A DNA stretch of 64,000 nt from a virus. Shown here one piece after another: positions 6,381 to 53,932 of the stretch (the stretch's first letter is position 1; every line of letters begins with the position of its first letter). The notes beneath the pieces are model-generated. The model was not told the origin of the DNA, made no database searches, and saw only the letters and a program-made list of their open reading frames with translations. The DNA lies in IMG/VR virus record IMGVR_UViG_3300025087_000039, positions 61,598 to 125,597 of that record; one strand, written 5' to 3'. The translations under genes and the position numbers were made by a program.

Positions 6381-6433
6381 TAGTACATTTAGATTAAATT
6401 AAAATAATTTTTTTGTAACTTTTTGGAGAAAAG

Positions 6434-13600: not shown

Positions 13601-13603
13601 TAA

Positions 13604-21612: not shown

Positions 21613-21975
21613 ATGATAATGAAGCCTTTAATCGGTCAAATAGTTTTAGATATATATGGAAAAAAAGTTTGGATCAATTCAATAGGTGGTTGTATTTTAC
21701 GAATTAATAATGTTAATTTTGTAAGAAATAATAATGAAGAACTGGATGAAAATATTATAGAAAAATTCAATATGATAGATATTAATTGTTCAGATAGTAA
21801 TAGCGCTGTTGTATTAAATAATAATATAGGAAGTGAAAAAAATATAAATAAATTTACGTTTTTAGAAAAGAGTTTATTTTGTTTATCTCAAATAGACAAT
21901 GAAGAACTTCAAAAAGAAATAATAGATTTTTTTGAAAAGGTTAGAACGAAAGGGCTAACAACGGATGGAAAATAA
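21613..21975 (+). CDS. Unknown protein upstream of the E2-like genes
   Basis: A 120-residue protein. Residues 1-40 look beta-rich (IGQIVLDIYGKKVWINSIGG), the middle is Asn-rich and probably flexible, and the C-terminal ~35 residues form a Glu/Lys helix. It overlaps the start of the first large E2-like gene by 11 bp, so it probably belongs to the ubiquitin-like cassette transcriptionally. No domain is recognised, and a role in that pathway is guesswork. Confidence 0.55.
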   Translation: MIMKPLIGQIVLDIYGKKVWINSIGGCILRINNVNFVRNNNEELDENIIEKFNMIDINCSDSNSAVVLNNNIGSEKNINKFTFLEKSLFCLSQIDNEELQKEIIDFFEKVRTKGLTTDGK

Positions 21976-24322
21976 TTGGATCTATAAGTTAGATTCAAGA
22001 ATAGTTATCGATAAAAATTTTGTGATAAAGGAATATGGTTATAAAAAAGATGATCTATTTTTAAAACTTGGAGATGTAAAATTTCCTGCTGCAAAATTTT
22101 CAAATCAATTTATTAATAAAGATTCAGAAGATTTATTGATGTTACCTGGGGTTAGGTTTTTGAAAAAAATTTCTGGAAATCAATGGAAATTTTTATTTGA
22201 GGAACCTCCTCAAATAAAAACAGTTTATGTTTCACCAGCATTGATTGATTATGAAAAAGGAATGATACAGAATCCAGAAATTGTTGAACTCTTTTTGAAA
22301 AATATTTATAAAATAAAGGGACGATATGCGGTTCGATTATCTTTTCCTTTTGTCATCTTTACTGGGGTAATTAGAAAAATAAAGGAAAATGTTTTTGACT
22401 CAATGTCATTATCAGCTTACATTGCTCCAAGACAATTAAATAGTTTTGATGATAAATTATATTTGCCACCTTTGTCAAATATTATGTTTACTGGATCGGT
22501 ATGTTGCCCGAGAACTTCTGGAGATACGATAGGGAGCACAATTTTAAATCAATTAAGAGTTTTTTGGGAATCTGAATTTAATACAGATTATTATAATGGA
22601 AGAAAATATACAAGTGAAAGTGGAAATGAGTTAGGAACAATTTTAGCTTGGAATTATAATACAAAGATTGATCCATTATTTATTTATGATAAAAAATTTG
22701 TCCAAGCGGATTCTTTGTTGAGTAATCTTTTTAATGGTGAAAATTTAATAACTGTTAAAACTCTTTTTGAAAGAATACAAAGTTCTTTTTCGAATATTGA
22801 ATCAGATAATTTTTCTAGGATAGAAAGAACATTGACATATTTAGAAATTCAGAAAGATAATAATATTATCAGGTTGGATATTGGTGATGAGATTGTAATA
22901 GGGGATAAAGTTTTATATATTTTAAATATATTTTTAGAAAACAATATATCTGTTATAGATTATGACACAAATGAAACGAAAGAAATTAAATTAACAAAGA
23001 AAATTTCTCATGATACTTATGATTATTATATTAAGAAAAAGTTTTTGATTAATAATTTAGAATTTTCTAGAGGAGATTTAATTCATATCACTTCTCCTAT
23101 GAATTATTTTGGATCGATTAATAGAATTGTCCAAAGGGCAGATGGAAGTCAATATTTAAAATTAGATAATAGTTATTTTAATTTTAATATCAAAAATTTA
23201 GTTTTTGAAAAATATCAAGATTCTAGTAAAGATTATTGTGGTGAGTCAATCAAATTAAATAAGAAATATTTTTATTTCAGGTCAGGTCATACTCCTTATG
23301 AAATTGAATTGTCAGATATTTTTATAAAAGATGGAAATATAATGTATAAAACTTTAAGAGATGGATATAATAATAATAATACCATTATCCCAGATACAAA
23401 AAATCTCGTTCCTATAGAAAAAGTTAAAACACACAAAGAAGAGTTTTTCTATAACGGAGCACAGATTTTTCATATAAGCGAATATTATAGTATCGATGAT
23501 TATAAGTTTGTAGATAACGGCTTCGACCTTTTTTTAGATTTTTCAAATGTTTTAAAAAATAATTCGATAAATATTTCTGGTAGAAAGAATTTTTCTTTTA
23601 AAGAGGGTGATCTTGTTATCGAAACAAGAAATACAAAATATAAAGTATATGAAATCAAAAAAATTACATCTTCAAGAAATAATAATTTAGAGGTCACTTA
23701 TCAAGATGGTAAAATATCTCCTCTACTTATTTATAATACAAATGTTAATCCATTTATAAATAAATTTTATATGAAATACAATGAGTTATATAGCGGTATA
23801 GAATTTAAAGCAATAAATAGTGATATTCCCGGTTTTGTAAAAAATAAAATATACAAATTAATAGGTTTTGTAGATGGATTTAAAAATATTCCACTGTGTT
23901 ACATGTCAAATGGAATGACTGTTTGGCCACACAATTTAATTCAATCTTTTAATGTCGTTTCAATAAATGAATTGAAAATTGAAGATTTAAATAGTCATGC
24001 AATAGGAGAGAAATTTCCTAAAGTTGAAGGCCCAAAAGCAAGAGTCCCTCATTTGGACGGAGAAGTGTCCTTCAAATATATAAACGGAAGATTTACAGAA
24101 AAAATTATAAATGGACAAATAAAATTGTACATGGGAGAAAAAAACTTTATTCCAAAAATAGATGAAGACGATTTAGATAATCAAATTTGTAGAGGAATAA
24201 TTTTTCCAAGGTTGACTGGTGAAAAAAATGTATTTTTAAATCAAAATTACATAGAACATAATTTATTAGGGCTGATTCCGAATTATTTTATTCCTGAAGA
24301 GGTTTTAAAAGGAGCAGCTTAA
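21965..24322 (+). CDS. Large E2-like protein A of the ubiquitin-like conjugation cassette
   Basis: A 785-residue protein. Residues ~90-230 resemble the prokaryotic E2-like family B (Prok-E2_B/PRTRC-B type): a 'LPPLSNIMFTGSVCCP' segment with candidate active-site Cys180/181, then 'FWESEFNTDYY', the pattern in which PRTRC-B-like proteins carry their conserved Cys. The long C-terminal region (about 260-785) is beta-rich and ends with a module ('KLIGFVDGFKN...YMSNGMTVWPHNLI') that is clearly repeated in the next protein. The two genes are therefore tandem paralogs. The giant C-terminal part is unusual for an E2 and could recognise targets. The E2 activity is inferred from motif and from the E1, Ubl and JAB neighbours. 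Confidence 0.65.
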   Translation: MENNWIYKLDSRIVIDKNFVIKEYGYKKDDLFLKLGDVKFPAAKFSNQFINKDSEDLLMLPGVRFLKKISGNQWKFLFEEPPQIKTVYVSPALIDYEKGMIQNPEIVELFLKNIYKIKGRYAVRLSFPFVIFTGVIRKIKENVFDSMSLSAYIAPRQLNSFDDKLYLPPLSNIMFTGSVCCPRTSGDTIGSTILNQLRVFWESEFNTDYYNGRKYTSESGNELGTILAWNYNTKIDPLFIYDKKFVQADSLLSNLFNGENLITVKTLFERIQSSFSNIESDNFSRIERTLTYLEIQKDNNIIRLDIGDEIVIGDKVLYILNIFLENNISVIDYDTNETKEIKLTKKISHDTYDYYIKKKFLINNLEFSRGDLIHITSPMNYFGSINRIVQRADGSQYLKLDNSYFNFNIKNLVFEKYQDSSKDYCGESIKLNKKYFYFRSGHTPYEIELSDIFIKDGNIMYKTLRDGYNNNNTIIPDTKNLVPIEKVKTHKEEFFYNGAQIFHISEYYSIDDYKFVDNGFDLFLDFSNVLKNNSINISGRKNFSFKEGDLVIETRNTKYKVYEIKKITSSRNNNLEVTYQDGKISPLLIYNTNVNPFINKFYMKYNELYSGIEFKAINSDIPGFVKNKIYKLIGFVDGFKNIPLCYMSNGMTVWPHNLIQSFNVVSINELKIEDLNSHAIGEKFPKVEGPKARVPHLDGEVSFKYINGRFTEKIINGQIKLYMGEKNFIPKIDEDDLDNQICRGIIFPRLTGEKNVFLNQNYIEHNLLGLIPNYFIPEEVLKGAA

Positions 24323-26766
24323 TGCTGAAAAAGCAGATTTTCATATGCGGAAATGAAGCTGGAATAAACTATTTAAACGGTACGACTATTTTTGCAAAAA
24401 AATCATGGTTCTATCAACCAATAGCAGAAAAACCTTTTCAATTAACAAAAGAAATGTCAGAATTGGATTTTTATATTTCTGATTCTAATAAAAATAAATA
24501 TATTGTTTTTCATGATGAACCACAAAAAAGAACAATACGCCTTCATAGCTATTTAGTTCAGAGACATTTAGAAGAATTAAATGAAATAAATCCTGAAGGG
24601 TTTAAAACATTACGTGAAATAAAAAAGAATGAATTGATTGAACCGATGAACTTTTTTCTTTCGTTTCCTTATATTTATTTTGGAGCAAAATTATTTGAAG
24701 ATGAAGGTGATATTCATGCTGAAAGGGTTTGTGCATTTGTCTCTAAAACTCCAATTAAATCTATGGAAGAAAAAGTATTTAGAGTTCCATTACCTAATAT
24801 AGAGCCTAGTGGAAAAATTTGTATGGGAACAGGAATTAGAAGCAAAAATATTTCTGGACTTATAAAAACAATACGAACGGTATTTTGGACATCGACATTT
24901 AATGATGATATTTTACAAAATGTTATTGCATATTCATCATATCCAACATTCAAAAACTTTTTTCAGTGGCAAATTCTAACAAAAAGCTCAGAAGAAAATA
25001 TAGCTTTGAAATCTAAATATGTCCAAATTGGATCATTATATGATGCTTTAGTTTTTGGAAGATCTCAGAATAATCGACCGTCTGAGGAACCTGTAAGACG
25101 TCAAAGTTCTGAAGATTATAATTATAATAATTTTGAAGATTTATATCACTCAATTTTAAAAAAAATGGAACCTAAAAAGATTTCTTTATATGGCAAGGAA
25201 TATTATGTATATTCTACAAATTTTTACTATGGGGAGCCATTTTATTTATCAAAAAAGAAAAAAACATTTTTCTTAGCTTGTGTTCATGATAATAGAAGAT
25301 TATATTTTATTTTAGAAAAAAATAAATATGGCAATACAGATCGTGAAAAATATTTTCTTATTAAACTTAGTGGTAAAAAGGATATGGATTTTTATATTAA
25401 AAAAAGAGGTATTCTTCATAAAAACACAGAAATTATAGTTGGGGGAATTCCATTTAAAAAAGATGATATGGTAAAAAATGAGAATCATATTAAAGATAAT
25501 TTTTCTTTAATTTCAATGGTTTATACAGATTCTGATGGAAATAATGTTTATATAAAAGATAATTCTAATTTAACTTTTTTCATTAATAATGATAATACAA
25601 TTAAAAAATTTATTCTAACAGATTGTTTTGATAAGCCAATAGATGGTAATAAAATATATTATAATCTTGATAATGTTCCTGGAACTAATTTATTAATTGG
25701 AGATATGAGATTTTATGGGAGAGATTTGAAAGTTCAAAGTAATGGAAGCAATACATATCTTTCTTATAATAAAAATTTAATAGCAATAAAAAATATTATT
25801 TTAGCAGAGGATGTCGAAAAATTTACATGTATTGATAAGAAATTAGGTTTCATAGATAATCGTTCTAGAATATCTATGGGCGTAAATGTCTGTACATATG
25901 AGGATGAAATATATTTAATAAAAAATACGTCAAGTTTTTGTCCCAATTTGAGAAAATTCTTTAAAGACGATAAAGTACAAATTGGTGGAATCACTGATTT
26001 TAATTTACCTCTTAACGAAATATTCTTCTTTGGGCATGAATTTTTATTTGGAATTGATAGATTTAAGGAATATAGTTCTGAGTATATAACTGGACTTAAA
26101 CAAAGACATGCCGTCATAGATTCAAATTGTAGTATTTTTAATCCTTTTATAAGGAAATTTTATACAAGTTATTTTAATTTACATACTGGAATGGTTATGA
26201 GATATATTTCAGGTTTGCCTAATTTTATAGAAAATGAAGAATATTGTATTTTAGGCTTTGTTGATGGTTTTATTGATATGGCCAAAAATATAAGAATTCC
26301 AGCCATTTTCATGTCAAATGGCGTTACGATATGGCCTCAAGATTTGATTAGATTTTTTCAATTTACAGAAAAGAAGAATGAAATTGATCTAGAGAAGTTT
26401 CAATTCACTAATCATGTTCATTCGACTTTTCAAAAAGGAGATTTATTGTTTAAAAGATCAGCTTTTTATTTACATGATGATCAACCAGATTCAAATGAAT
26501 TTGATTGGTATAATTTCAATACTATTTGTGAATCGGCAATAGATTCAAAGATTAAAAGTATAAATTTATTTTTAAGACCAATTGTGTATCCAAGAGTTCC
26601 CTTAAATGAAGAAGGAACAAAAGATAGAGTTTTTATTGGACAAAGATGTATTACAAACTGTCCTAAAACTTTTGATTTAGAAGAAAAATATTTATATCCT
26701 TATAAACCGGAATTTATAGATTCAAAAGTTCTTGATAAGTTTGTTTCGAAAAAGAAAGGAAAGTAA
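24322..26766 (+). CDS. Large E2-like protein B, paralog of the preceding gene
   Basis: An 814-residue paralog of protein A. The E2-like core shows 'PLPNIEPSGKICMGTG' with candidate catalytic Cys167 and 'FWTSTFNDD', aligning with the same elements of protein A. The shared C-terminal module is 'CILGFVDGFID...FMSNGVTIWPQDLI'. Overall similarity is low outside these islands, so the duplication is old. The start overlaps the previous stop (TAATG) with an aaaggagc ribosome site, and the stop overlaps the JAB gene in the same way. Having two large E2-like paralogs may mean two target classes or one inactive partner. Confidence 0.65.
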   Translation: MLKKQIFICGNEAGINYLNGTTIFAKKSWFYQPIAEKPFQLTKEMSELDFYISDSNKNKYIVFHDEPQKRTIRLHSYLVQRHLEELNEINPEGFKTLREIKKNELIEPMNFFLSFPYIYFGAKLFEDEGDIHAERVCAFVSKTPIKSMEEKVFRVPLPNIEPSGKICMGTGIRSKNISGLIKTIRTVFWTSTFNDDILQNVIAYSSYPTFKNFFQWQILTKSSEENIALKSKYVQIGSLYDALVFGRSQNNRPSEEPVRRQSSEDYNYNNFEDLYHSILKKMEPKKISLYGKEYYVYSTNFYYGEPFYLSKKKKTFFLACVHDNRRLYFILEKNKYGNTDREKYFLIKLSGKKDMDFYIKKRGILHKNTEIIVGGIPFKKDDMVKNENHIKDNFSLISMVYTDSDGNNVYIKDNSNLTFFINNDNTIKKFILTDCFDKPIDGNKIYYNLDNVPGTNLLIGDMRFYGRDLKVQSNGSNTYLSYNKNLIAIKNIILAEDVEKFTCIDKKLGFIDNRSRISMGVNVCTYEDEIYLIKNTSSFCPNLRKFFKDDKVQIGGITDFNLPLNEIFFFGHEFLFGIDRFKEYSSEYITGLKQRHAVIDSNCSIFNPFIRKFYTSYFNLHTGMVMRYISGLPNFIENEEYCILGFVDGFIDMAKNIRIPAIFMSNGVTIWPQDLIRFFQFTEKKNEIDLEKFQFTNHVHSTFQKGDLLFKRSAFYLHDDQPDSNEFDWYNFNTICESAIDSKIKSINLFLRPIVYPRVPLNEEGTKDRVFIGQRCITNCPKTFDLEEKYLYPYKPEFIDSKVLDKFVSKKKGK

Positions 26767-27881
26767 TGTTCCCAATATATTTATACGATGATAAAAAACT
26801 AATACCAAAAGAAGACATTGCATATCTTATCGGAAAAAATGGAATTTTTATTAAAAAACATTCTCCTATCGTTGATGCTTTGGTTCCGGTCGATAAAATT
26901 TCTTGTCTGGAAGAAATCAAAAGTTATGGGGTAATAAACGTTCCAAAATTACCTAAAGAAATAGGGGGATTAACTTATAAATTTATGAAAAAAATGTATG
27001 AAAAATATCATTCAGAAAGTATTGTAATGCTTTTTTATTCTCCGGAAAAAGGGTTTAGATTATATTGTCCCTTTCAAAATATTTCATCTGCTTCAATTAA
27101 ATATTTAAAGCCTAAAACTTTTAGGGGGTATACATTAATTGGAACTATTCATAGTCATGCTGGATTTTCAGCATTTCATTCCGGAGTCGATGATTCAGAT
27201 GAATTTGGTTTTGATGGGTTACATGTCACTTTTGGAAATTTTAGTGATGAAAAAACTTTTACAATTTCTTGTAGTTGTGTGGTAAATGGAAAAAGGTTTA
27301 TGTATGATCCCAAAGATTATTTTGAGGGCTTAACGGTTATAAAGGAGTTTACAAAAACATGGGATTATCGCATCCAAGGATATAATACAACTCCTTCAAA
27401 TAAATTTATGTTTAAAGAAAAAGATTTAAAGAAAATTAATATTCCCACCTGTTGGGATCGAAGAATAAATCAGCCGAAAATTTCTCAACTTAAAGAAAAT
27501 ATTGGAGAACTTAAAGTAAATGATTTTCAATACAGTGGACGTTTTAGTGGGGCTTATAGAGAATTTTATGAAGGTTATGGAGATTATTTATTTGGAGCTG
27601 GTGGCTCCAATTATTATAAAAATTATGGGTTAATTGATTGGGCTGGAAAAACGCCAACCACCGATCAAAAATTACGACATGAAAATCAAAAGAAAATAAA
27701 TGCACTAACTGAGTTTTATAAAACTGAAGATTTTGAACCAAGTATGTTGGTCGATGAATTGATAGATAGAGGTCTTTGTTTTGAAATTGATAGGGATCAA
27801 CTTGAAGCGGTTATCGATACATTTTTTAATGGAGAAATAGTTGAGGATGATGCTGAAGAAGGAGGTCTTGCTGTTTCATGA
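26766..27881 (+). CDS. JAB1/MPN (JAMM) metallo-isopeptidase
   Basis: A 371-residue protein with a textbook JAMM zinc motif: His129-x-His131, seven residues, Ser139, two residues, Asp142 ('TIHSHAGFSAFHSGVDD'). A candidate upstream Glu is at about residue 84. JAMM enzymes cut ubiquitin-like proteins from targets or trim their C-termini; in bacterial Ubl operons they sit beside E1 and E2 genes exactly as here. The C-terminal third contains a Gly/Tyr-rich stretch (about 265-285) and an acidic end. It overlaps the E2-like B gene by 1 bp and the E1 gene by 4 bp. Confidence 0.88.
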   Translation: MFPIYLYDDKKLIPKEDIAYLIGKNGIFIKKHSPIVDALVPVDKISCLEEIKSYGVINVPKLPKEIGGLTYKFMKKMYEKYHSESIVMLFYSPEKGFRLYCPFQNISSASIKYLKPKTFRGYTLIGTIHSHAGFSAFHSGVDDSDEFGFDGLHVTFGNFSDEKTFTISCSCVVNGKRFMYDPKDYFEGLTVIKEFTKTWDYRIQGYNTTPSNKFMFKEKDLKKINIPTCWDRRINQPKISQLKENIGELKVNDFQYSGRFSGAYREFYEGYGDYLFGAGGSNYYKNYGLIDWAGKTPTTDQKLRHENQKKINALTEFYKTEDFEPSMLVDELIDRGLCFEIDRDQLEAVIDTFFNGEIVEDDAEEGGLAVS

Positions 27882-28570
27882 ATATAAAAATTATAGGGTT
27901 GGGTGGAATAGGAACAGTTTTTTCTGAATTGGTAACGAGATATTTAACATATTCTGGAATTAATAATATTTCAATTTGTTTTATTGACGGTGATTCTTTT
28001 GAAAGAAAAAATTCTGAAAGACAAATTTTTCAAAATCTTGGGAATAAAGCAGAGATAAAATTTAGAGAAATTAATAATCCGATGGGAAGTATTAATTATA
28101 CATATATTCCGGAATATATTAATGAAAATAATATCAACAGAATTATTTTTGAGGATGACATTGTATTTTTGTGTGTTGATAATCACGCAACAAGAAAATT
28201 AGTCTCAGATCATTGTGTATTGTTAAGGAACATAATATTAATATCTGGTGGCAATGAACTTTTGGATGGCAATGTTCAAATTTTTATTAGGAAAGATAAC
28301 AAAAATATTACCCCAACCATAACTGATTATCATCCAGAGATCAATGAGCCATTGGATAAAAACCCCAATGATATGAGTTGCGAAGAATTATCAAGATTAT
28401 CAGAACCCCAAATTTTCTTTACAAACGCTGGAGTCGCAATTTTTATGTGTTTTTCATTTTATAATATTTTAAATCAAAAAGATTTTAATGTTTCTGAAGT
28501 TTATTTTGATATTCCGAAACTTGTGTCTGATTCAAAAATTAGGTCTCCATATGTCAGAAAGCATGCTTAA
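27878..28570 (+). CDS. ThiF/E1-like ubiquitin-like protein activating enzyme
   Basis: A 230-residue E1/ThiF-superfamily adenylyltransferase. The nucleotide-binding loop GLGGIG lies at residues 7-12. It is followed by acidic residues D37/D39, the NSERQ motif (N45, R48, Q49) that contacts ATP in E1 enzymes, and Asp101 in 'CVDNHATR'. A candidate catalytic Cys168 in MSCEE sits where bacterial ThiF-like E1s place theirs, just before 'FTNAGVA'. It should adenylate the C-terminus of the ubiquitin-like protein encoded 85 bp downstream. It overlaps the JAB gene by ATGA. Confidence 0.88.
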   Translation: MNIKIIGLGGIGTVFSELVTRYLTYSGINNISICFIDGDSFERKNSERQIFQNLGNKAEIKFREINNPMGSINYTYIPEYINENNINRIIFEDDIVFLCVDNHATRKLVSDHCVLLRNIILISGGNELLDGNVQIFIRKDNKNITPTITDYHPEINEPLDKNPNDMSCEELSRLSEPQIFFTNAGVAIFMCFSFYNILNQKDFNVSEVYFDIPKLVSDSKIRSPYVRKHA

Positions 28571-28655
28571 AAATTAAGTTTTTCGTTTTTTTACCTTCTG
28601 TTTTCCTCGCAGCAAAAACAAAACCACGAAGTACCACAAGAAAGGGTCTCACACC

Positions 28656-29093
28656 ATGTATACCGCCGAACAGCTGTCCGCCATGACCGTTCGTGAACTC
28701 CGTGACATCTGCGTCAGCCGTGGGATCACCGGGATGTCCAAGCGCCGGAAGGATGAGATCATCAGCGCCATCCTGGCCAACACCCGGAACGACGAAGCGG
28801 GTCAGCCTGGCCCCACCGCAATCCGTGGGCTCCAGTATGACGCGACCAGCACCCGGGTGTCCGGTGGGAACCAGATCACAACGACCATCCGGGTCACCTC
28901 CGGTGCAAGCTCGGGGAACTACCCCGTCGTCGGGAAGACCGTGGGCGAGGTTTCTCGCTTCCTGGCGGAAGCCCTCAACATCGACCGGATGGCCCAGGGT
29001 ATCGTGAACGGTGACGTGAAGGACGACAACTACGTTCTCCAGGCCAACGACTCCCTCGAGTTCCTGAAGCCTGCCGGACGGAAGGGTTTCTAA
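28656..29093 (+). CDS. Ubiquitin-like (beta-grasp) protein with N-terminal Rho-N/SAP-like domain; GC-rich gene
   Basis: A 145-residue protein. Residues 5-42 resemble the Rho N-terminal/SAP-type helical domain (MTVRELRDICVSRGI...SKRRKDEII), a nucleic-acid-binding fold. After a flexible linker, residues 72-145 read like a prokaryotic ubiquitin-like domain of the PRTRC-C/multi-ubiquitin sort: 'TTTIRV', 'GKTVGEVSRFLAEAL', 'GIVNGDVKDDNYVL', 'NDSLEFLKPAGRKGF'. The protein ends Gly144-Phe145, so removal of one residue would expose a C-terminal Gly for E1 activation. The gene is about 62% GC with GC-ending codons, in complete contrast to both neighbours (near 25%), and a UUCG hairpin follows. This implies strong expression, host-like codon tuning or recent transfer. 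Confidence 0.75.
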   Translation: MYTAEQLSAMTVRELRDICVSRGITGMSKRRKDEIISAILANTRNDEAGQPGPTAIRGLQYDATSTRVSGGNQITTTIRVTSGASSGNYPVVGKTVGEVSRFLAEALNIDRMAQGIVNGDVKDDNYVLQANDSLEFLKPAGRKGF

Positions 29094-29103
29094 ACCATCT
29101 AAC

Positions 29104-29135
29104 CATGAGGGGGGCTTCGGCCCCCCTCATGTTTT
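29104..29135 (+). terminator. UUCG-capped intrinsic terminator after the ubiquitin-like gene
   Basis: A perfect 12-bp stem (29104-29115 with 29120-29131, including six G:C pairs in a row) is closed by a c(UUCG)g tetraloop, one of the most stable RNA loops known, and is followed by tttt. It lies 10 bp after the stop of the GC-rich Ubl gene, isolating it from the downstream half of the cassette. Confidence 0.92.
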
Positions 29136-29149
29136 AAAAGGGAATAAAA

Positions 29150-29788
29150 ATGACATTTTTTATTTTTTCTATTGTGGTGTTGTTTATGGCAGCGTTTTTA
29201 CTTAAAATCCTAAAATTGAAGAAAAATAATAATATTATAGAAGCTGATTATATTGTAGAAGATTCATTAAATTTATGGGAAAAGTATTTTAGTAAAAGAA
29301 TTGTATATGTTTTTAGGAAAAATTTTTTAGGTAAATTTATGACAATATGTCTTTTTCTTGATAGCGAAGGTAATGTTTTGTCCAGGGGTATTTCAATTTG
29401 TTCCTTAGATGATAATATGACAAATTATGGAGGAATTTCATTATCTGCGTCTAGAGCGTATAATGCGTTTATCACCACAAAAAATTCAGAAAGAATAATT
29501 CCAAGAAAAATGAAAAATTATACAAGAAGATATAATTTTAAAACAATTGAAGAAAGAGATATTTTTATAAAAGATATTGAACTAGAATTGGAAAGACTTT
29601 TATTACCTCATGAATATTCTTTAAAAATAAGAAACTTAACTTTACATCTGACGATTCCTAAAAGTTATTTACTATTTTTTGCTAAACAATATTATGAATA
29701 TAAATCTGAATATCAACCTTTATTTTTAACGGAAGAAGAAAAACAAGAAATCAACAAAAGGATTGAAAAAGAAAGATTGAAAAAATGA
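29150..29788 (+). CDS. Membrane-anchored protein within the ubiquitin-like cassette
   Basis: A 212-residue protein. Residues 2-21 form a strongly hydrophobic N-terminal helix (signal anchor), followed by Lys-rich residues, giving an N-out/C-in anchored topology. The soluble part contains 'RGISICSLDDNMTN' followed by 'SLSASRAYNAF', which recalls a short motif found in small phage and plasmid proteins, and ends with a Glu/Lys-rich helix. The ribosome site aaaaggga lies just after the terminator, and the stop overlaps the second E1-like gene. No enzymatic role is seen; it could bring conjugation to the membrane. Confidence 0.6.
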   Translation: MTFFIFSIVVLFMAAFLLKILKLKKNNNIIEADYIVEDSLNLWEKYFSKRIVYVFRKNFLGKFMTICLFLDSEGNVLSRGISICSLDDNMTNYGGISLSASRAYNAFITTKNSERIIPRKMKNYTRRYNFKTIEERDIFIKDIELELERLLLPHEYSLKIRNLTLHLTIPKSYLLFFAKQYYEYKSEYQPLFLTEEEKQEINKRIEKERLKK

Positions 29789-30672
29789 TTATTCGTGAAA
29801 TATGTATAATTGGAACCGGAACGTTCGGGAGTCATTTATCAATCAAATTTTCAGAGGCTAAAGAAATAAAAAAATTAATACTTATTGATTATGATTTAGT
29901 AAATGAAAATGATATTTTAAAGGGTGATTTTACCACGTTAGGAAAAAGAAAAGTTTTTGATTTATCTGAAAGAATAGAAAAAACAAGGGGCTATGAATTT
30001 ATAAAGCCCATTGATTCGAAGAACGGATTTGATTTTTCAAAAATACTTAGATATAGTTATGAAAATTTATTAATTATTGATTGTACTGATGTATTAAATA
30101 ATAAAAATCAATCAGATATAAAAAGTTATATTTCTGGAAGAAAAGTTATTTTAGATTGCAGAAAAAATTTGAATTATAGCAATGGATTTGAAGGAAGATA
30201 TTTTGAAGATTTATCAAAATATGAATTAGAACAAGCGGCAATTTTAGCAAGAAATACAATTCTTAATAAATCTTTTGAAAATATTTTGACTAAGGAATTA
30301 GTTCAAATTTTAGATATTCCTAGAATAGATAATTATCTTCAAAAGACTTTAAAAAATGAATCTGAAAAAGATGATTTAATAGTTCAAAACGATGGAAATT
30401 TAGAAAGATTTTATAATTTTTCAAGTTCAGTAAAACCGATCATAGAAAAGAATAAGAGGCAAGATATAGATTTTTATCTAGATTCTAAGTTTTCTACCTT
30501 CCCAATTAAAACTACATGTTTAAAAGAAAGACTACAAACTCCTTTAGATCTTTGTGAATTATTAAAAACCTTTTCTAGTTTTCCAACTGTTAAATATAAT
30601 TATATTATTAACATCGTAGATGAAGGGAATGATTTTTATGTGGAATTAATAAGAGAATCGGGAGCAGCATGA
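29785..30672 (+). CDS. Second, divergent E1/ThiF-like protein
   Basis: A 295-residue Rossmann-fold protein related to ThiF/E1: GTGTFG at residues 10-15, acidic LIDYD at 33-37, 'NENDILKGDFTTLGKRKV' where E1s have NxxRQ...GxxK, and 'IIDCTD' near residue 98. The conserved Arg of the E1 NxxRQ motif is not present, and no clear catalytic Cys motif follows (Cys125 in LDCRKN is a weak candidate). It may therefore be a non-catalytic partner of the first E1 or an enzyme with altered chemistry. The C-terminal ~150 residues are unique. Its stop overlaps the small E2 gene (ATGA). Confidence 0.65.
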   Translation: MIIREICIIGTGTFGSHLSIKFSEAKEIKKLILIDYDLVNENDILKGDFTTLGKRKVFDLSERIEKTRGYEFIKPIDSKNGFDFSKILRYSYENLLIIDCTDVLNNKNQSDIKSYISGRKVILDCRKNLNYSNGFEGRYFEDLSKYELEQAAILARNTILNKSFENILTKELVQILDIPRIDNYLQKTLKNESEKDDLIVQNDGNLERFYNFSSSVKPIIEKNKRQDIDFYLDSKFSTFPIKTTCLKERLQTPLDLCELLKTFSSFPTVKYNYIINIVDEGNDFYVELIRESGAA

Positions 30673-31103
30673 ATGATATCATCCTTCAAAATGGAGCGAT
30701 AGTTATAAACAAAGATTCTAAAATAAAAATTGAGAAGATAAATAAAAAAATTATTCCTTCTTATTTTATTTTGAATAATGAATATTTTAAAATATTAGAA
30801 ATAGATTTGCCATATATTATTAATGGTTATTATGTTAGGGTGATAGATCAAAGAATTCTATCAATTATTTTATGTGGTGTTCATCCGAACGCTGATTTAT
30901 ATTCTGGTTTATTATGTTTACCTAAGCCTTTTATTGGAAAACATTTTAACGAAAAATTTTTAAACATAATAGAGAATCGGTTTATTTCAATACATAATTT
31001 GGATAATAGTTATTTTATAGATAAAGCTATTTATCTTAAATATGAAAAGGTAACACACAAACCAAAAATATATATTGTGGAGGATCAATGCCCAAACTCT
31101 TAG
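30669..31103 (+). CDS. Small canonical-looking E2 (UBC-fold) conjugating enzyme
   Basis: A 144-residue protein with the strongest E2 signature in the window: HPN at residues 72-74, then Cys83 in 'GVHPNADLYSGLLCLP', closely echoing the HPN-x7-C-L-P active-site region of eukaryotic ubiquitin-conjugating enzymes. The length also fits a minimal UBC fold. It starts in the stop of the second E1-like gene with a gggagc ribosome site. Its last 16 bp overlap the start of the second RNA polymerase beta' gene, so the conjugation cassette and polymerase set 2 are translationally linked. The target and Ubl partner are inferred only from context. Confidence 0.75.
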   Translation: MNDIILQNGAIVINKDSKIKIEKINKKIIPSYFILNNEYFKILEIDLPYIINGYYVRVIDQRILSIILCGVHPNADLYSGLLCLPKPFIGKHFNEKFLNIIENRFISIHNLDNSYFIDKAIYLKYEKVTHKPKIYIVEDQCPNS

Positions 31104-33814
31104 ATATTTCTAAGTTTTGTGAAAATCTTCCAGAGGTAACTACATTTGAGATTATTGATAAGAAAAAATTTCATCCAAATGGCCTTTTTTCAGAACAACT
31201 TTTTGGACCAATAAGAAATTATACATGTCAATGTAAAATTTATAGGGGCGTTTCAAAATCCGGAGGAAAATGTAATATTTGTAATGTTGACATAGTTAAT
31301 AGTAATGTAAGAAGAAGAAGATTTGGAAAAATTGTTTTGCCTTTTCCAATTGTAAATCCAATGTTTTTTGAACTATTAAGTTTTGTTGGCGGAAAGAAAG
31401 TTAAAGAAATGATTTCTATGTTAATGAAAAATGATAAAAGTATTTTATATAAAGATGATAATGGAGAATTTGTTATAACCACAGATATTGAAAGCATCCC
31501 TAAAGAAAAAATATTTTTTGAAAAAACTGAGGCAATAAAAGAATTTATTACACAAATTACAAAAGAGATTTTAAAGGATGAAGAAAATCCAGAATTAAGT
31601 TATTGGAATATAATAAAAGAAAATTTAAATAATATTTTAATAAACGAAGTAATTGTTTTACCTCCAGATTTAAGACCCCCATCAAAAACTACGGTAAAAA
31701 ATGTTCCTGTCGCAGATCCAATAAATAGATTTTATGTTCAACTTTTAACAAATAAAAAGATCATTGAAAACACTTTGGTCGAAGTTCAAAAAAATAAAAA
31801 GATATATTATATGTATTTTAAAGAAATTCAAAAAACTGTAAATCAACTTTATGTTTTTATATTGGAAAAACTTTCTAAAAAAGAAGGATTGATAAGAGGA
31901 AATATTTTAGGAAAAAGAATTGATTTTTCAGGGAGAGCCGTAATAGTCCCATCTCCAACTATTAATATTGACGAATGTGTTTTACCCTATGTTATGATTT
32001 TAGAATTATTTAAAATTCAAATTGCACAAAAATTAGTGAATAATGAAAGTTTTAAAATTCTCAACGAGGCAATAGATTTTGTTGATAGATGCATTGATCT
32101 TAAAAGTTTGGATTTATATAAAGAAGCTGAAGAAATTGTAAAGGGTGAAGTTTGTATTTTAAATAGGCAACCCACGCTTCATAGATTAGGAATGCTTGGT
32201 TTCAAAATTAAAATATCCTCAGATAATGTTATAAAAATTCACCCTTTAGCATGTGAGCCATTTAATGCTGATTTTGATGGGGATCAGATGGCGGTATATT
32301 TACCAATATCTCAAGAGGCAAAAGATGAAGTTCTTGATAAGTTATTGATAACAAATAATTTAAACAGTCCATCAAATGGACAATTAGCGACTATGCCAAA
32401 TCAAGATATAATTTTGGGAATTTATATGTTAACAAATGATAAATTTCCTGATTTAACAAAAGAAACTATTTTTAAAAATATTAAAATCACAGAAGGAAGA
32501 AAATTATTCAATGAGTGTTTTCCAGAAGACTATCCTATAATAAATTACTCTGTAGGCAAAAATGAATTATTAAAAATCTTAAGTGATATTTCACAAAATT
32601 ATTCTAAAGAAATATTAGCCATAGTTTTAGATAAGATCAAATTATTGGGATTTAAATATTCAACAATTTTCGGAACCACTATGTCTTTAATTGATTGTAC
32701 ATCAAAAGATTCTAAGGAATATGTAGATAAAATATTTTCAGGAGAAAATATAAGAAAACAAATCGAAGATATATCTTCAAATGAAACTATAGAAACTTTA
32801 AAGAAAATATTTAAATATTCTTATATGGTTGAATCTGGAGCCAGAGGAACTTGGGACCAAGTTAGACAAATTGTTTTATCAAGAGGGTTTATCTCAAATT
32901 TTGAAGGACAAATTTTACCTGAACCAATTAAAAATAGTTTAATGAATGGGTTAACCAAAAGAGAATTTTTTATATCCACATATGGATGTCGAAAAGGTTT
33001 ATTAGACGTTGCATTAAATACTGGAATCTCAGGCTATCTTTCAAGAAAGTTGATTTTTACCTGTTGTAATCTTCAACTTGATTTAAATTTAGAAGATTGT
33101 GGAACTAAAGATTGTATAGAACTTTTTATTGAAAATGCAGATAAAAGTAAATCTTTAATAGGCAGAAATTATATAGAGAATAATGAATTGAAAAAAATTA
33201 CAATGTTAAATTTTAAAAGTTTAGTTGGAAAAACTTTAAAACTACGAAGTCCTATTTATTGTGAATCTGAAAATATTTGTAAAACTTGTTATGGAGATTT
33301 ATACAAAATTATCAATAGTAAATTTATTGGCGTAGTTGCGGCTCAGTGTCTTGGTGAAAGAGGAACTCAATTAGTTTTAAGAACTTTCCATACTTCTGGG
33401 TCTGCTATAATTAATGAAAAATCTGAAGAAAAAATTGATGAGATGAAACAGATGGATATTATTGGGGATTTAGAAACCGCTTCTGATTTATTACATAGAT
33501 TTAAAGATAATAATTTTATGAATTCTTTAAATAATTTATTTAAAGTATATTCCTCTTCTGGAAAAATACATCATGTTCATTTTGAATGTGTGATTTCTCA
33601 GTTAATGTGGCATGGAATGAAAAAATGGAGATTAACCAAAGATCGTGATAAAAAATCTTTAGAAATGAAAAGTGTCCAATCGGTTCCCAGTTATGAAAGT
33701 TGGCTTTTAGCTTTAGCTTTTTCTAATCCAAAAAAGAGCATATTAAATGGAATGGTATATAAAGGTTTATATACTGGAATTATGGACCGAATATTAAAAG
33801 GGGAAAAAGTTTAA
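31088..33814 (+). CDS. RNA polymerase beta' subunit (set 2, intact)
   Basis: A 908-residue beta' subunit in one chain. The N-terminal zinc-binding domain has Cys47, 49, 62 and 65, the same spacing as bacterial beta'. The switch/rudder region includes 'GLIRGNILGKRIDFSGRAV', and the catalytic NADFDGD is at about residues 393-399. The second zinc site has Cys in EDCGT and YC-x5-IC-x2-C. 'LRTFHTSG' and the C-terminal helix 'VHFECVISQLM' follow. It is much shorter than the E. coli protein, as in other phages. It starts within the E2 gene with a gtggagg site and precedes the beta gene by 19 bp. Confidence 0.96.
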   Translation: MPKLLDISKFCENLPEVTTFEIIDKKKFHPNGLFSEQLFGPIRNYTCQCKIYRGVSKSGGKCNICNVDIVNSNVRRRRFGKIVLPFPIVNPMFFELLSFVGGKKVKEMISMLMKNDKSILYKDDNGEFVITTDIESIPKEKIFFEKTEAIKEFITQITKEILKDEENPELSYWNIIKENLNNILINEVIVLPPDLRPPSKTTVKNVPVADPINRFYVQLLTNKKIIENTLVEVQKNKKIYYMYFKEIQKTVNQLYVFILEKLSKKEGLIRGNILGKRIDFSGRAVIVPSPTINIDECVLPYVMILELFKIQIAQKLVNNESFKILNEAIDFVDRCIDLKSLDLYKEAEEIVKGEVCILNRQPTLHRLGMLGFKIKISSDNVIKIHPLACEPFNADFDGDQMAVYLPISQEAKDEVLDKLLITNNLNSPSNGQLATMPNQDIILGIYMLTNDKFPDLTKETIFKNIKITEGRKLFNECFPEDYPIINYSVGKNELLKILSDISQNYSKEILAIVLDKIKLLGFKYSTIFGTTMSLIDCTSKDSKEYVDKIFSGENIRKQIEDISSNETIETLKKIFKYSYMVESGARGTWDQVRQIVLSRGFISNFEGQILPEPIKNSLMNGLTKREFFISTYGCRKGLLDVALNTGISGYLSRKLIFTCCNLQLDLNLEDCGTKDCIELFIENADKSKSLIGRNYIENNELKKITMLNFKSLVGKTLKLRSPIYCESENICKTCYGDLYKIINSKFIGVVAAQCLGERGTQLVLRTFHTSGSAIINEKSEEKIDEMKQMDIIGDLETASDLLHRFKDNNFMNSLNNLFKVYSSSGKIHHVHFECVISQLMWHGMKKWRLTKDRDKKSLEMKSVQSVPSYESWLLALAFSNPKKSILNGMVYKGLYTGIMDRILKGEKV

Positions 33815-33833
33815 TTTTTTCATGGAGGATTCA

Positions 33834-36830
33834 ATGATTCGAAATCCTTTTTATGAGATTGACGATCCTGTAAATAATATGTTTTCAATCAGAAAAAATG
33901 AATATGATGAAATACTTAGCAAGGTTAATATAATTTTACAACCTGCTAGAGATCTTGATTTTATTGTCGAAGAATTGGATTTTTATGATCATAAATTTAC
34001 TTCTGGTGAACTTCATAGAACATTGAGACGAAATTTGATTATCAAATTGAAGAAAAGAAATTCAACGATTGATTTAAGTATGTCTGTTCCAAAATTAATT
34101 GATAATAATTATTTTTATATTAACGGTCGAAAGAAAATGCCTTTATTTCAAATGTTCGATTTACCTGTTGTGACAAGAGGAAAAATTATTAAATTAAGAA
34201 CTTGTGTTTCTACATTAATGTTAATAAATGAAAAAACAGAGCCTTTTATAAAAGCATCTTTTTTGGGTAAAAAAGTCCCTTTAGTTTTATTGATGGCATG
34301 CTATTTTTCTGAAAAAGAGTTGGAAGAAAGAAAACAAAAACTTTTAGGTATGAAAGAGCATAATGTTTTTTCAGAAAATTTATTAAAAGATATTGAGGAA
34401 TTTCAGGTTGAAAATGAAGGAATTGAAGAAGAATTTTTGATGGAAATGTTAGGGCGGCATTACACAAAATATAATATTAAATCAAAAGGTTATGATGTTA
34501 TATATGCTCTTGATATAATTCCAAAAGTTGATATTATGTCTTCCCAATTCTTCAGAACTGAAAATGTTTTAGATGAAATTCTTTATCCTTTAATTAATGG
34601 ATTTTATAATGATTTAGATTTAAGAAATAAAAGAATAAGATGTTTTGAATATGTTGTTTTAGAAAAGGTTGCTAAAGCCGTTTTTGATTTATGCGTTACA
34701 AATAGAACAACACGAAATCCAAATTTCAATATTAATACTAGCCATATAATTTCTGAATGTAATGTTTCAGATATTGTTCAATTTGATTTTGCGATAAATC
34801 CAATTGAAGAATTAACCAGTTTATCAAGAACCAGTTTAGTTGGGCCTGGTGGTTTTAAGAGAGAAAATGTTCCAAGGGGGTTGAGAGATATAAATGACTC
34901 TATGTATAATCGAATCTGTCCTGTTGATACCCCAGATAGAGAAAATTGTGGAGTTTTACAAAATCTTCTAATAAATACAAAATTAGATAATAATTTAAGA
35001 TTTTCAGAAGAGAGAAGCAATCAACCAATTTCTATCCCAGTATCATTTGTCCCATTTCTTGAAAGAGATGACCAGACGAGATTGCAAATGGCATCATCAC
35101 AAATGAGACAAACAATTCTTTTAAAAAATAATGATTCACAATTAATCAAAACAGGTTGTGAAGGATTATATACCGATAAAACTCAATTTGTAAAAACTGC
35201 AAAAAATAAAGGAACTGTAATTTATTTGGATCAAAAGATTTTAATTGTAAAATATGAGGATGAAACGCCTGACTTTTTTGAGGTTGGCCATAGAGAAATA
35301 TATGTAAAAAATTTAGACATTTATAAAGTTTATGTGAAAGTTGGAGATACATTTAATAAAGGAGATATTTTAGCGGAGAGTTTATTTTGTAGAAATGGTG
35401 AAATAAATTTTGGAAAAAATCTTCTGACCGGAGTTATGGTTTATTATGGATATAATTATGAAGACGGCATTGTAATTTCAGATCGATTGATAAAAGATGA
35501 TTCATTTACCTCAGTTCATTTTAAAGATTTATCTTTTAATATTCCATCAAATAAAGTTCTTTTATCTTTAGAAAAAAATTCATATAAACCTCTTCCAGAA
35601 AAATTTGAAAGAATTTATAAAGGGCAAGCATATGCCAAAACTAAAAGTATTTTATCTGGAACTGAATTTACTAGTGTTTTTGAAGAAGTGGAAGAACAAA
35701 CTACAGATAAAAATGTTATAATCACAGACCTCAATTTATATATAAATGATTGGAACAAAGAAATTCCAGAATATTCAAGATGGGTTGAAACCGTTAAAAA
35801 TGAACAGATACGAAATGAAGATATTTTTAGAGAATCTCTAAAAGATCATTTTGAAAAAAGAGATATTGAAGATATTATTAGAGATAATTTTCTAAATAAA
35901 TTTTCTCAGGCTGGAAGATATAAAATTAAGGGAGAAAGAATAAGCGGTATACTTGTTGAAATGTCAGGAATATTTTTTAGAAAAATCCAGGTTGGAGATA
36001 AGATAGCTAACAGACATGGAAATAAAGGGGTTATCTCAGCAATAATTCCTGAAGAAAAAATGCCTGTTTTGGAAGATGGAAGACATTTAGATATCTGTAT
36101 AAATCCTCTTGGAATAATTTCCAGAATGAATATTGGACAATTATTTGAACTTCATTTGGGGATGGCAGTTAATACCCTTAAAATGAAATCTTTAGAGATG
36201 TTAAAAAATTCAGAACCTCAGGAAAAAATAAAGGAATTTTTAATTGAGTTTATTAAAATAATTGATAGAACAGAAGGCAATTGGTATACAAAACAATTTA
36301 TTGAAAATTTTCCAGAAAATATTGAAAAAGAATTTTTAGAGAATTTTTCAGTTCATCAGCCACCTTTTGAGTCAACAGATATGAAGGGAATTGAAGACGC
36401 TTTAAAATATACAAATGAGAATTTTAAGTATAAGGTTTTTGATCCAATTTCTAAGATGGATATTTTAAATGAGGTTGCAGTAGGGTTTTTAACTTTTTTT
36501 AGAATTGCACATATTGCTGAAGATAAGCTCGCCGCCAGAGGAATCGGCTCATATACAAAGAAAACTCTTCAACCGTTAGGTGGAAGAAAGAATAAAGGCG
36601 GACAAAGATGTGGTGAAATGGAGTCCGCTAGTTTGATTGGGTACGAAGCGAGCACAAATCTTTTTGAGATGTTTACCACAAAATCTGATTGTATAGATTT
36701 AAAAAATCAACATATTAAAAATAGTATTAGAAATACTGGAATGACGATGTTTGATGAAGAAATAAATATTTCCCCTGAATCTGTAAATCTCTTATATTCA
36801 TATTTAAAGGCAATCGGAATAGAGCCGTGA
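33834..36830 (+). CDS. RNA polymerase beta subunit (set 2)
   Basis: A 998-residue beta subunit, far shorter than the 1366-residue beta of set 1. Motifs include 'SRTSLVGPGGF' and 'RICPVDTPDRENCGV' (about residues 340-380), GYNYEDG (about 540), 'GDKIANRHGNKGVIS' (about 720) and 'GGRKNKGGQRCGEME' (about 917). An ATG 12 bp upstream is in frame, but ATG 33834 has ggagg at 4-5 nt and is preferred. It forms an operon with the beta' just upstream and ends at a strong hairpin. Together with set 1 it shows that the phage encodes two polymerases, a hallmark of phiKZ/PBS1-type jumbo phages. Confidence 0.95.
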   Translation: MIRNPFYEIDDPVNNMFSIRKNEYDEILSKVNIILQPARDLDFIVEELDFYDHKFTSGELHRTLRRNLIIKLKKRNSTIDLSMSVPKLIDNNYFYINGRKKMPLFQMFDLPVVTRGKIIKLRTCVSTLMLINEKTEPFIKASFLGKKVPLVLLMACYFSEKELEERKQKLLGMKEHNVFSENLLKDIEEFQVENEGIEEEFLMEMLGRHYTKYNIKSKGYDVIYALDIIPKVDIMSSQFFRTENVLDEILYPLINGFYNDLDLRNKRIRCFEYVVLEKVAKAVFDLCVTNRTTRNPNFNINTSHIISECNVSDIVQFDFAINPIEELTSLSRTSLVGPGGFKRENVPRGLRDINDSMYNRICPVDTPDRENCGVLQNLLINTKLDNNLRFSEERSNQPISIPVSFVPFLERDDQTRLQMASSQMRQTILLKNNDSQLIKTGCEGLYTDKTQFVKTAKNKGTVIYLDQKILIVKYEDETPDFFEVGHREIYVKNLDIYKVYVKVGDTFNKGDILAESLFCRNGEINFGKNLLTGVMVYYGYNYEDGIVISDRLIKDDSFTSVHFKDLSFNIPSNKVLLSLEKNSYKPLPEKFERIYKGQAYAKTKSILSGTEFTSVFEEVEEQTTDKNVIITDLNLYINDWNKEIPEYSRWVETVKNEQIRNEDIFRESLKDHFEKRDIEDIIRDNFLNKFSQAGRYKIKGERISGILVEMSGIFFRKIQVGDKIANRHGNKGVISAIIPEEKMPVLEDGRHLDICINPLGIISRMNIGQLFELHLGMAVNTLKMKSLEMLKNSEPQEKIKEFLIEFIKIIDRTEGNWYTKQFIENFPENIEKEFLENFSVHQPPFESTDMKGIEDALKYTNENFKYKVFDPISKMDILNEVAVGFLTFFRIAHIAEDKLAARGIGSYTKKTLQPLGGRKNKGGQRCGEMESASLIGYEASTNLFEMFTTKSDCIDLKNQHIKNSIRNTGMTMFDEEINISPESVNLLYSYLKAIGIEP

Positions 36831-36976: not shown

Positions 36977-37822
36977 ATGACACTGCCGGACATTCAAAAA
37001 ACAGAGCCAGAGATTAAAAGATATATTAATCAGGTTGGGGTTGAAAATATTGAGCTTCCGTTTATTCTTCAATTAAAATCAGGTGGTTATACGGATGTCT
37101 TAGCTTCAGTTTCTTTAAAAACAAATTTAAAAGAAGATATTAAAGGCATTTCCATGTCAAGACTTTTATTAACCCTAAAACCATTTTTAGGAAAACCGTT
37201 AAAACATTTTTTAATTCTTGAAATTTTAAAAGATATTGCAAAAAATCTTGAAACAAAAAATAGTATGTTAACATTTAAGTTTAAACTTCCTATTATTAAA
37301 AAATCTCCAATTTCAAACAATGAATTTCCTTTATATTATAAAAGTATGTTTGAAGGGCATCTATTAGATGATAAATTTTCATTTTATCAGGGCGTAACAG
37401 TTCAATATTCTTCATATTGTCCATGTTCTGCTGAATTATGTAAAGATTTAAAAAATAATGGCTTAGAAGGTTTTCCTCATGCACAGAGATCTTTCTCATC
37501 AATCATAGCAAAAATAAAAGAGAATAATTATATATGGTTAGAGGATCTAATATTTACTGTCGAAAACTCGATACGAACTCAGCCATACCCTATAATCAAA
37601 AGAATAGATGAGCAAGAGATCGCTAGAATCGCAGCAGAAAATCCCATTTTTGTTGAAGATGCAATTCGAGTTATTTCTCAAAAAATCGATTCGATAGATG
37701 GGATAGAGGATTGGATCATAAAATGTTCTCATGAGGAATCAATCCATACATCAGAGGCAGTTGCAAGTTCTTGGAAAGGAATTCAAGGAGGATTTGATGA
37801 AAAATATTTTCTTCAGGTTTGA
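36977..37822 (+). CDS. folE2: GTP cyclohydrolase IB (FolE2)
   Basis: A 281-residue FolE2 (GTP cyclohydrolase IB), which makes 7,8-dihydroneopterin triphosphate from GTP. Recognisable elements are 'DIQKTEPEIKRYINQVGVE', 'GISMSRL', the metal-binding 'SSYCPCSAE' (about residue 146), 'HAQRSFSS', 'IKRIDEQEIARIAAENP' and the C-terminal 'SHEESIHTSEAVA'. Its product feeds QueD (14934) and hence preQ0-type 7-deazaguanine synthesis, or folate. The ribosome site is caggagc. A phage FolE2 rather than the commoner FolE is noteworthy because FolE2 does not need zinc. Confidence 0.9.
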   Translation: MTLPDIQKTEPEIKRYINQVGVENIELPFILQLKSGGYTDVLASVSLKTNLKEDIKGISMSRLLLTLKPFLGKPLKHFLILEILKDIAKNLETKNSMLTFKFKLPIIKKSPISNNEFPLYYKSMFEGHLLDDKFSFYQGVTVQYSSYCPCSAELCKDLKNNGLEGFPHAQRSFSSIIAKIKENNYIWLEDLIFTVENSIRTQPYPIIKRIDEQEIARIAAENPIFVEDAIRVISQKIDSIDGIEDWIIKCSHEESIHTSEAVASSWKGIQGGFDEKYFLQV

Positions 37823-39838: not shown

Positions 39839-40166
39839 AAATAAATGTTCTTCAGAAAAAGAAGTTGTCACCTTAGTTGTAGATTTAGATCAAGATGATT
39901 TTATTGGACATACATTAAAAGAAAATATCATAAAAATAAATGAATTAATTAAAAACTTTGGAGAAAATGCGAGAACAGAGTTGGATTATAGTAGACTTAT
40001 CTTGAGATATCAACGGTTGGAAACTGATGATGAATTTAAAGAGAGAATGAGGAAAGAAGAGATAATTAAAATGAGATGTAAAAGGGAAAAAGAATTAAAG
40101 GAAGAATACGAACGTAAAGAATATATAAGATTAAGGAAAAAGTTTGAAAAGGATTCGAAAATTTGA
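39825..40166 (+). CDS. Small radical-SAM-associated protein, LETDEEF family (copy 3)
   Basis: A 113-residue paralog of the preceding gene: 'TLKENIIKINELIKNFGE', then YQRLETDDEFKERM, then a Lys/Glu helix ending 'YIRLRKKFE'. It has an aaggaga ribosome site. Its stop overlaps the TTG start of the radical SAM gene at 40163, implying translational coupling. The tandem pair upstream of one enzyme and a third copy downstream suggests the small proteins have diverged to serve one shared enzyme. Confidence 0.75.
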   Translation: MGKNKNKCSSEKEVVTLVVDLDQDDFIGHTLKENIIKINELIKNFGENARTELDYSRLILRYQRLETDDEFKERMRKEEIIKMRCKREKELKEEYERKEYIRLRKKFEKDSKI

Positions 40167-53925: not shown

Positions 53926-53932
53926 TTGGAAT

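Follow-up and report, generated by a model that had tools for sequence, protein, structure and literature searches.

Can a phage carry a ubiquitin-like protein conjugation pathway of its own, and on which proteins would such a pathway act? The question is raised by eight consecutive genes at positions 21965-31103 of a 64,000-nucleotide stretch, here called the window, which represents the last 64 kb of the 125,597-bp virus record IMGVR_UViG_3300025087_000039, itself a fragment. The genes are predicted to encode activating enzymes (E1), conjugating enzymes (E2), a ubiquitin-like modifier (Ubl), and a protease of the JAMM/JAB family. We estimate a probability of about two in three that they represent a working ubiquitin-like conjugation system, which forms a core block in a clade of jumbo phages and has its substrates among the proteins that handle phage DNA or RNA, most plausibly the adjacent transcription machinery.

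All eight open reading frames (ORFs) reported in the initial annotation were recovered at their positions on the plus strand. They had been described as nearly all overlapping, which is slightly generous: overlaps of 1, 1, 4, 4, and 4 bp occur at five of the seven junctions, but the Ubl gene is separated from its neighbours by 85 bp on one side and 56 bp on the other. The attribution to a jumbo phage agrees with the sizes of the relatives, which reach 277 to 312 kb, the record here being a fragment of 125.6 kb. The features are as follows.

21965..24322, plus strand: E2a, 785 residues, Prok-E2_D-type E2 domain near the N-terminus
24322..26766, plus strand: E2b, 814 residues, paralogue of E2a, Prok-E2_D match
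26766..27881, plus strand: JAMM/JAB protease, 371 residues, motif HSHx7SxxD at 27150-27191
27878..28570, plus strand: E1, ThiF fold, 230 residues, with GLGGIG, NxxRQ, and the Cys168 codon at 28379-28381
28656..29093, plus strand: candidate Ubl modifier, 145 residues, Rho_N/SAP domain at 28671-28781, linker, beta-grasp part at about 28875-29090
29104..29135, plus strand: intrinsic-terminator-like hairpin, CATGAGGGGGGC-TTCG-GCCCCCCTCATG-TTTT
29150..29788, plus strand: variable protein of 212 residues without a Pfam match
29785..30672, plus strand: E1b, second E1-like protein, 295 residues, Rossmann GxGxxG kept
30669..31103, plus strand: E2c, small E2-like protein, 144 residues, HPN..C at 30882-30917
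31088..36830, plus strand: rpoC-rpoB pair with matches to the rpoC and rpoB models, a neighbour outside the proposed system

Predicted components of the block

By homology, the parts of a complete conjugation kit are present: an E1, an E2, a Ubl with a tail of the processed type, and a JAMM deconjugase. The E1 can be assigned to the ThiF family without ambiguity (E = 3.3e-20 to ThiF and 5e-12 to PRTRC_ThiF), with GLGGIG, NSERQ, K57, D101, and Cys168 retained across the alignment. All 66 E1 sequences contained the GxGGxG motif, and almost all of them the NxxRQ Arg finger.

The protease contains an exact JAMM motif at residues 129 to 142 (HSH-AGFSAFH-S-GV-D), as had been noted previously. The two His, the Ser, and the Asp were invariant in the first six phages, and the pattern H[ST]H-x7-S-xx-D was found in 36 of 37 and 63 of 65 JAB ORFs in two sets of loci. 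Glu84 upstream of the motif was also invariant in six phage JABs, so that both HxH-x7-SxxD and the upstream Glu of deubiquitinase-like JAMM proteases are in place. The best profile matches were to PRTRC_A (E = 2.5e-9, below its cut-off) and Prok-JAB (2.9e-5), and the best matches in PDB, all of them weak, were to Rpn11/PSMD14.

The Ubl is best described as a predicted beta-grasp modifier with a C-terminal Gly. The best Pfam matches of its beta-grasp part were to ThiS (11 of 22 family members) and TGS (15 of 22), with best E-values of about 2-3e-4. The protein ends in AGRKGF, and Gly-x-Lys-Gly was invariant in the 22 sequences aligned; this ending is present in nearly all of the loci that we selected by their rpoC gene (see below), where it is followed by 0 to 9 residues. 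Such short tails of variable length after the Lys-Gly would suit processing by a protease. We also identified an N-terminal Rho_N/SAP domain (E = 1.8e-9), a nucleic-acid-binding-type domain that the initial annotation had missed.

The matches to ThiS and TGS, along with the resemblance of the E1 to ThiF/MoeB, raise the question of whether the Ubl is instead a sulphur carrier like ThiS or MoaD, which would supply sulphur for a cofactor or a modified base together with the radical SAM proteins encoded nearby in conserved order. We consider this highly improbable, as every complete locus encodes E2-type proteins with an invariant Cys, for which sulphur transfer has no need, while the block contains no rhodanese or sulphurtransferase and the Ubl carries a Rho_N domain and ends in GxKG plus a tail.

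Both large proteins are candidate E2 enzymes, as proposed initially. They matched Prok-E2_D of Pfam slightly below the cut-off (E = 2.2e-3 for E2a and 2.5e-5 for E2b) and are 24% identical to each other. In E2a, the match covers residues 162 to 220, with the putative active-site stretch LSNIMFTGSVC, and is followed by a long C-terminal part to which no fold was assigned. In E2b, the E2 domain spans about residues 50 to 245 (24469-25056), and the predicted catalytic Cys167 (24820-24822) is located in LPNIEPSGKICMG. Prok-E2_D was matched by 15 of the 24 members of the large-E2 family, with a best E-value of 3.3e-6, and Cys167 and Asn159 were invariant in all 24. Comparisons with hhalign linked the N-terminal domain of E2b to the E2s of a four-gene bacterial system (99.9%, 4.7e-36) and to PRTRC_B-type E2s (91%, 1e-6). 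The AlphaFold2 model of E2b was confident only for about residues 50 to 245, in which the order helix-strands-Cys-helix fits a UBC fold; the full-length model is of low confidence, and its matches to Tudor/RimM-like barrels in Foldseek were not used. The His of the HPN motif is absent from the large E2s, and neither of the two E2 alignments contained an invariant His. None of the other phage loci showed a second copy, as in the E2a/E2b tandem.

The Ubl gene also differs from its surroundings in base composition, another feature absent from the initial annotation, having a GC content of 62% in a region of about 27%, and a GC content at third codon positions of 0.81 compared to 0.13 to 0.20 in its neighbours. 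Because this value is raised only moderately in the Ubl genes of the relatives, the gene in this virus has probably been replaced recently, in place, from a GC-rich source. It has its own GC-rich putative terminator. Ubls with two tandem SAP-type domains were observed in loci L027 (10721-11365) and L030 (10683-11396). A second small gene, for a Rho_N/SAP-like protein with an acidic tail and no Ubl part, was located just upstream of the large E2 gene in L003 (5414-5776), L005 (5337-5774), L006 (5324-5764), and L026 (6259-6585).

Conservation of the block and its probable division into two modules

Searches of viral contigs and GenBank phages with the JAB alone found nothing, whereas searches with the Ubl identified 6 viral contigs and those with an E1 alignment 29. 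To obtain a set that was not biased by the system itself, we selected 80 loci by their phage-type rpoC gene, 56 of which contained at least 9 kb of upstream sequence; the set was not dereplicated. Within these 56 loci, the large E2 was present in 51, the JAB, E1, and Ubl in 52 each, and E1b and E2c in 53 each. In most of the contigs identified with the Ubl or the E1 alignment, the genes on one strand ran from SbcC and radical SAM through several small genes to the large E2, JAB, E1, SAP-Ubl, a variable gene in some of the loci, E1b, E2c, rpoC, and rpoB. Since JAB-E1-Ubl was located upstream of rpoC in the same order in 52 of the 56 loci, the predicted system is a core syntenic block of the phage clade rather than a passing acquisition, and chance is excluded, as dozens of phages have retained the set and the gene order. 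A clade of large phages thus appears to have a complete E1-E2-Ubl-JAMM set of its own, which is nearly universal in the clade and located beside RNA polymerase genes.

The initial annotation had treated the eight genes as a single pathway. All of its parts are present, but the block is better read as probably consisting of two separable modules, E2-JAB-E1-Ubl and E1b-E2c, because each half has been lost alone and a terminator-like hairpin is located between them. Locus L033 (identical to L197) contains the E2-JAB-E1-Ubl core without E1b and E2c, and L190 and L208 contain E1b and E2c without the core; the weak E1 match in L190 has the size of its own E1b. The hairpin after the Ubl gene in this virus, which the initial annotation did not mention, has a folding energy (dG) of -26.1 kcal/mol (z = -10.4). 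Of the 23 phage loci compared, 21 have a strong hairpin after the stop codon of the Ubl gene (median dG -20.2, z = -6.3). Such hairpins were observed in only 0 to 3 of the 23 loci after the E2, JAB, E1, E1b, E2c, and rpoC genes, and in 7 loci after rpoB. The simplest reading is that E2-JAB-E1-Ubl would form one transcription unit that ends after an abundant Ubl message.

The genes downstream of the hairpin are more varied in character. The 212-residue protein had been called membrane-anchored, and a transmembrane segment is indeed predicted at its N-terminus in this virus, but not in the related proteins. A membrane-anchored step was therefore rejected as a general feature, and the family is missing altogether in some of the relatives. 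The second E1-like protein was recognized by the NCBIfam model thiF_fam2 (3.7e-7), in agreement with the initial description, and is degenerate: an alignment of 21 sequences retained the Rossmann GxGxxG but not the NxxRQ Arg finger. The C-terminal residue of the E1b family was always Ala in the same alignment, mostly in the form TGAA or TGGA. This end comes after a beta-beta-alpha-beta-beta-like stretch, and perhaps a Ubl-like domain has been fused into E1b; this is a topological guess, and comparisons of the E1b C-terminus to the Ubls with hhalign gave no support. In E2c, the H, N, and C of the HPN...C motif, which had also been noted initially, were invariant in 20 of 20 sequences. A loss of the Cys in some phages was considered and rejected, as the alignment places this residue after longer insertions. 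The best PDB sequence match was to an E2 with HPN..tGEiCLD, and was weak (E = 0.047).

Cellular relatives and known systems

A scan of 84,980 genomes identified 80 loci in bacterial and archaeal metagenome-assembled genomes (MAGs), most of which contained Ubl-E2-JAB-E1 sets whose Ubl shares the ending seen in the phages. A supported clade (96/93) of the E1 tree united all phage sequences but one with three MAG contigs; of the latter, L043 and L078 contained a phage-type rpoC, while L044 stops at the E1 gene. These phage-like contigs were binned as Thermoplasmatales, Heimdallarchaeota, and Woesearchaeota, which is probably due to mis-binning, or else provides a clue to the host. The exception was the E1 of L034, a GC-rich viral contig, which was placed outside the main phage clade. 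The sister of the phage clade (98/96) consisted of Uhrbacteria, and the phage E1s, with this sister group, are nested inside a wide bacterial family of four-gene systems.

These bacterial systems (L045 to L122), which encode a Ubl, a Prok-E2_D-type E2, a JAB, and a ThiF protein, were found in Methylomirabilota, Desulfobacterota, Chloroflexota, Planctomycetota, Lentisphaerota, and the candidate phyla radiation (CPR). Their E1s are 35% to 49% identical to those of the phages, the E2 domains and the Ubls each belong to the same families (hhalign 99.9%), and their Ubls end in [AGS]GxKG plus a short tail. Prok-E2_D was matched by 8 of 12 of their E2s. They differ from the phage block in that the E2 is mostly small (about 220 to 300 residues), the Ubl lacks Rho_N, the gene order is different, and E1b and E2c do not directly follow the Ubl gene. 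The chromosomal loci of the Uhrbacteria (L076, L079, L083, and L099), the nearest cellular relatives, are more similar in that a SAP-type N-terminal region is fused to the Ubl and two giant E2s are encoded, as in this phage; however, the E2 genes follow the Ubl gene, the Ubl ends in GDKA, and E1b-E2c-rpoC are absent. In the Lentisphaerae relative L094, the flanks (5524-6432 and 12050-14016) contained a reverse transcriptase gene and an apparent repeat array beside Cas-like genes.

A gene for an AAA+ ATPase adjoins the Ubl or E2 gene in several of the bacterial operons (KSB1, Myxococcota, Ignavibacteriota, and Methylomirabilota), which are possibly Ubl-dependent unfoldase operons. Three of the ATPases matched proteasomal-ATPase OB domains (L119 2238-9963, L113 5874-7736, and L088 5867-7717), and L119 also contained a second JAB gene. 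By extension, the phage Ubl could be a tag for unfolding or degradation, whereby conjugates are passed to an AAA+ unfoldase. The phage block contains no such gene, and the one clear AAA+ match per phage genome is a protein of about 325 to 350 residues, the size of a clamp loader, which makes this explanation improbable.

An operon with Ubl, JAB, E1, and E2 genes, type 6d, which corresponds to PRTRC, was described by Iyer et al. 2006 (PMC1779556). Its E2 retains the catalytic Cys but not the HPN His, with an absolutely conserved His located downstream of the Cys, and its JAB is preceded by a domain with a strictly conserved Arg and Trp (Iyer et al. 2006). The phage genes for Ubl, JAB, E1, and E2 likewise form a single predicted operon, but the E2 lacks the conserved His, and none of the Arg and Trp residues N-terminal to the JAMM motif was invariant in the six phage JABs. 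A PRTRC_A-type JAB, a PRTRC_B/Prok-E2_D-type E2, a PRTRC-type ThiF, and a small Ubl ending in TKG are shared with PRTRC, to which the phage system adds the giant E2, the SAP-Ubl, E1b, and E2c. Membership in PRTRC was rejected because the scores were far below the curated NCBIfam cut-offs (37 versus 101.8 bits for PRTRC_A, 14.8 versus 131.5 for PRTRC_B, and 45.6 versus 144.8 for ThiF). PRTRC_C had no NCBIfam match, and the phage Ubl could not be aligned to it with support in hhalign; nor was any match to PRTRC_D, E, F, or ParB found among the operon proteins scanned against NCBIfam. On the basis of these comparisons, the phage system is classified as a divergent and distant variant of PRTRC/type 6d.

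No phage system of this kind, and no functional study of PRTRC, was found in the open-licence literature, and a review comparing jumbo phages (PMC7824862) does not mention one under the terms that we searched. The statement that no phage system with such a set has been described must nevertheless be modified, as the cultured Bacillus jumbo phage vB_BauM_KLEB27-3 (L039, OM634661.1) already carries a PRTRC-like set in gp194-gp199, with a ThiF protein (gp194), a PRTRC_A JAB (gp195), and an E2_D-like protein (gp196). Its gp199 (2718-3425) consists of four tandem Ubl repeats, each ending in KAGVKG, like a polyubiquitin precursor. Unlike in the block studied here, the poly-Ubl lacks Rho_N, the E2 is small, the genes are located away from rpoC, and the E1 aligns over part of its length at about 31% identity; KLEB27-3 is a second, independent phage example.

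Bacterial Ubl conjugation has so far been encountered mainly as an anti-phage weapon or in uncharacterized plasmid operons (PRTRC). The Bil and Bub/type II CBASS (Cap2/Cap3) systems also combine an E1, an E2, and a JAB-type protease that acts on a Ubl or a protein C-terminus, but they have another type of E2 and a different set and order of genes, and are bacterial rather than phage genes. The PADLOC models of these systems matched only over part of the E1 (best E = 2.6e-4 to 2.3e-3) and the PDB matches were marginal, which places the phage proteins outside them.

Such systems suggest a role in counter-defence or host takeover, as the initial annotation had considered, in which tagging would inactivate host defence proteins, RNA polymerase, or other factors, and the JAMM protease might also strip host Ubls of the Bil or CBASS type from phage proteins. 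Ubl conjugation is known to serve bacterial anti-phage systems (PMC10097602, PMC11153139; also Hor 2024, in the form in which it is cited in PMC12660748), and the weak E1-E2/BilD matches in PADLOC show common ancestry only. Counter-defence genes are usually patchy, whereas this block is nearly universal and syntenic in its clade, and the kit brings its own Ubl, E1, and E2, which is more than a deconjugase. This role therefore fits less well, and we consider it unlikely.

Candidate substrates

In the E1, E2, and JAMM families, the Ubl is trimmed, adenylated, transferred as a thioester to the E2, passed to a lysine, and removed again by the JAMM protease. Following this scheme, the phage JAMM protease would trim the residues after the Ubl GxKG (here a single Phe), and the ThiF-type E1 would adenylate the terminal Gly and hand the Ubl, probably via Cys168, to Cys167 of the Prok-E2_D-type large E2. 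The large E2 would conjugate the Ubl to proteins, from which the JAMM protease could later strip the tag. A tag of this type would place an extra DNA- or RNA-binding domain on its target. In the second module, E1b-E2c, the E2-like protein may extend or redirect conjugation.

Homology and conservation establish the parts, the active-site residues, the gene order, and the near-universality in the clade; from these we infer an active system, with the steps in the order given above. The SAP domain, the neighbouring genes, and the core status of the block together point to proteins working on phage DNA or RNA as substrates. A more specific version, in which the Rho_N/SAP-bearing Ubl is covalently attached to the phage RNA polymerase or to DNA-bound proteins as part of the core replication and transcription machinery, with a separable E1b-E2c relay beside it, is possible if doubtful.

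Several observations weigh against a working system directed at transcription. The argument from the neighbours carries little weight in a region that is syntenic throughout: adjacency to rpoC may reflect only the general synteny of the clade, in which SbcC, radical SAM, and other genes are also fixed. Rho_N domains are also found in proteins without a role in transcription. The predicted E2 fold of the large proteins derives from profile matches and the motif, and Foldseek searches with the E2b model returned no E2 match. For E2c, the AlphaFold2 model (pLDDT 87.9) had only a weak best fold match, to Ube2T (probability 0.63, TM-score 0.42, E = 0.25), and its profile had no significant match to the large E2s. 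Finally, 2 of the 56 rpoC-selected loci (L186 and L213) lacked every part of the system, and searches of their whole records, as well as those of L190 and L208, identified no core E1 or Ubl elsewhere in these records, which may be fragments.

The genomic setting also bears on a role in virion assembly, whereby proteins of the capsid, the tail, or the packaged polymerase would receive the Ubl during maturation and the JAMM protease would trim it, similar to what has been proposed for the lambda-type tail JAB/TAPI. A pairing of Ubl and JAB is known from phage tail operons (Iyer et al. 2006, PMC1779556), but these lack the E1 and E2 of the block, which is located among genes for replication, repair, and RNA polymerase (SbcCD, topoisomerase, and rpoBC) rather than structural genes. 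We regard this role as quite unlikely. Under the favoured reading, a conjugation system for phage DNA- and RNA-associated proteins, the block would provide a tractable, self-contained viral system for asking what purpose conjugation of the Prok-E2_D/PRTRC type serves, a question that dates back to 2006.

The window contains two sets of multisubunit RNA polymerase genes (5-6380 and 31088-36830), one of which consists of split RpoC pieces and a 1366-residue RpoB-like protein. Genes for a folE2-type GTP cyclohydrolase (36977-37822), a radical SAM protein (40163-40975), and an adenylosuccinate-synthetase-like protein (53926-55167) were also identified, and these may possibly serve the synthesis of DNA with modified bases.

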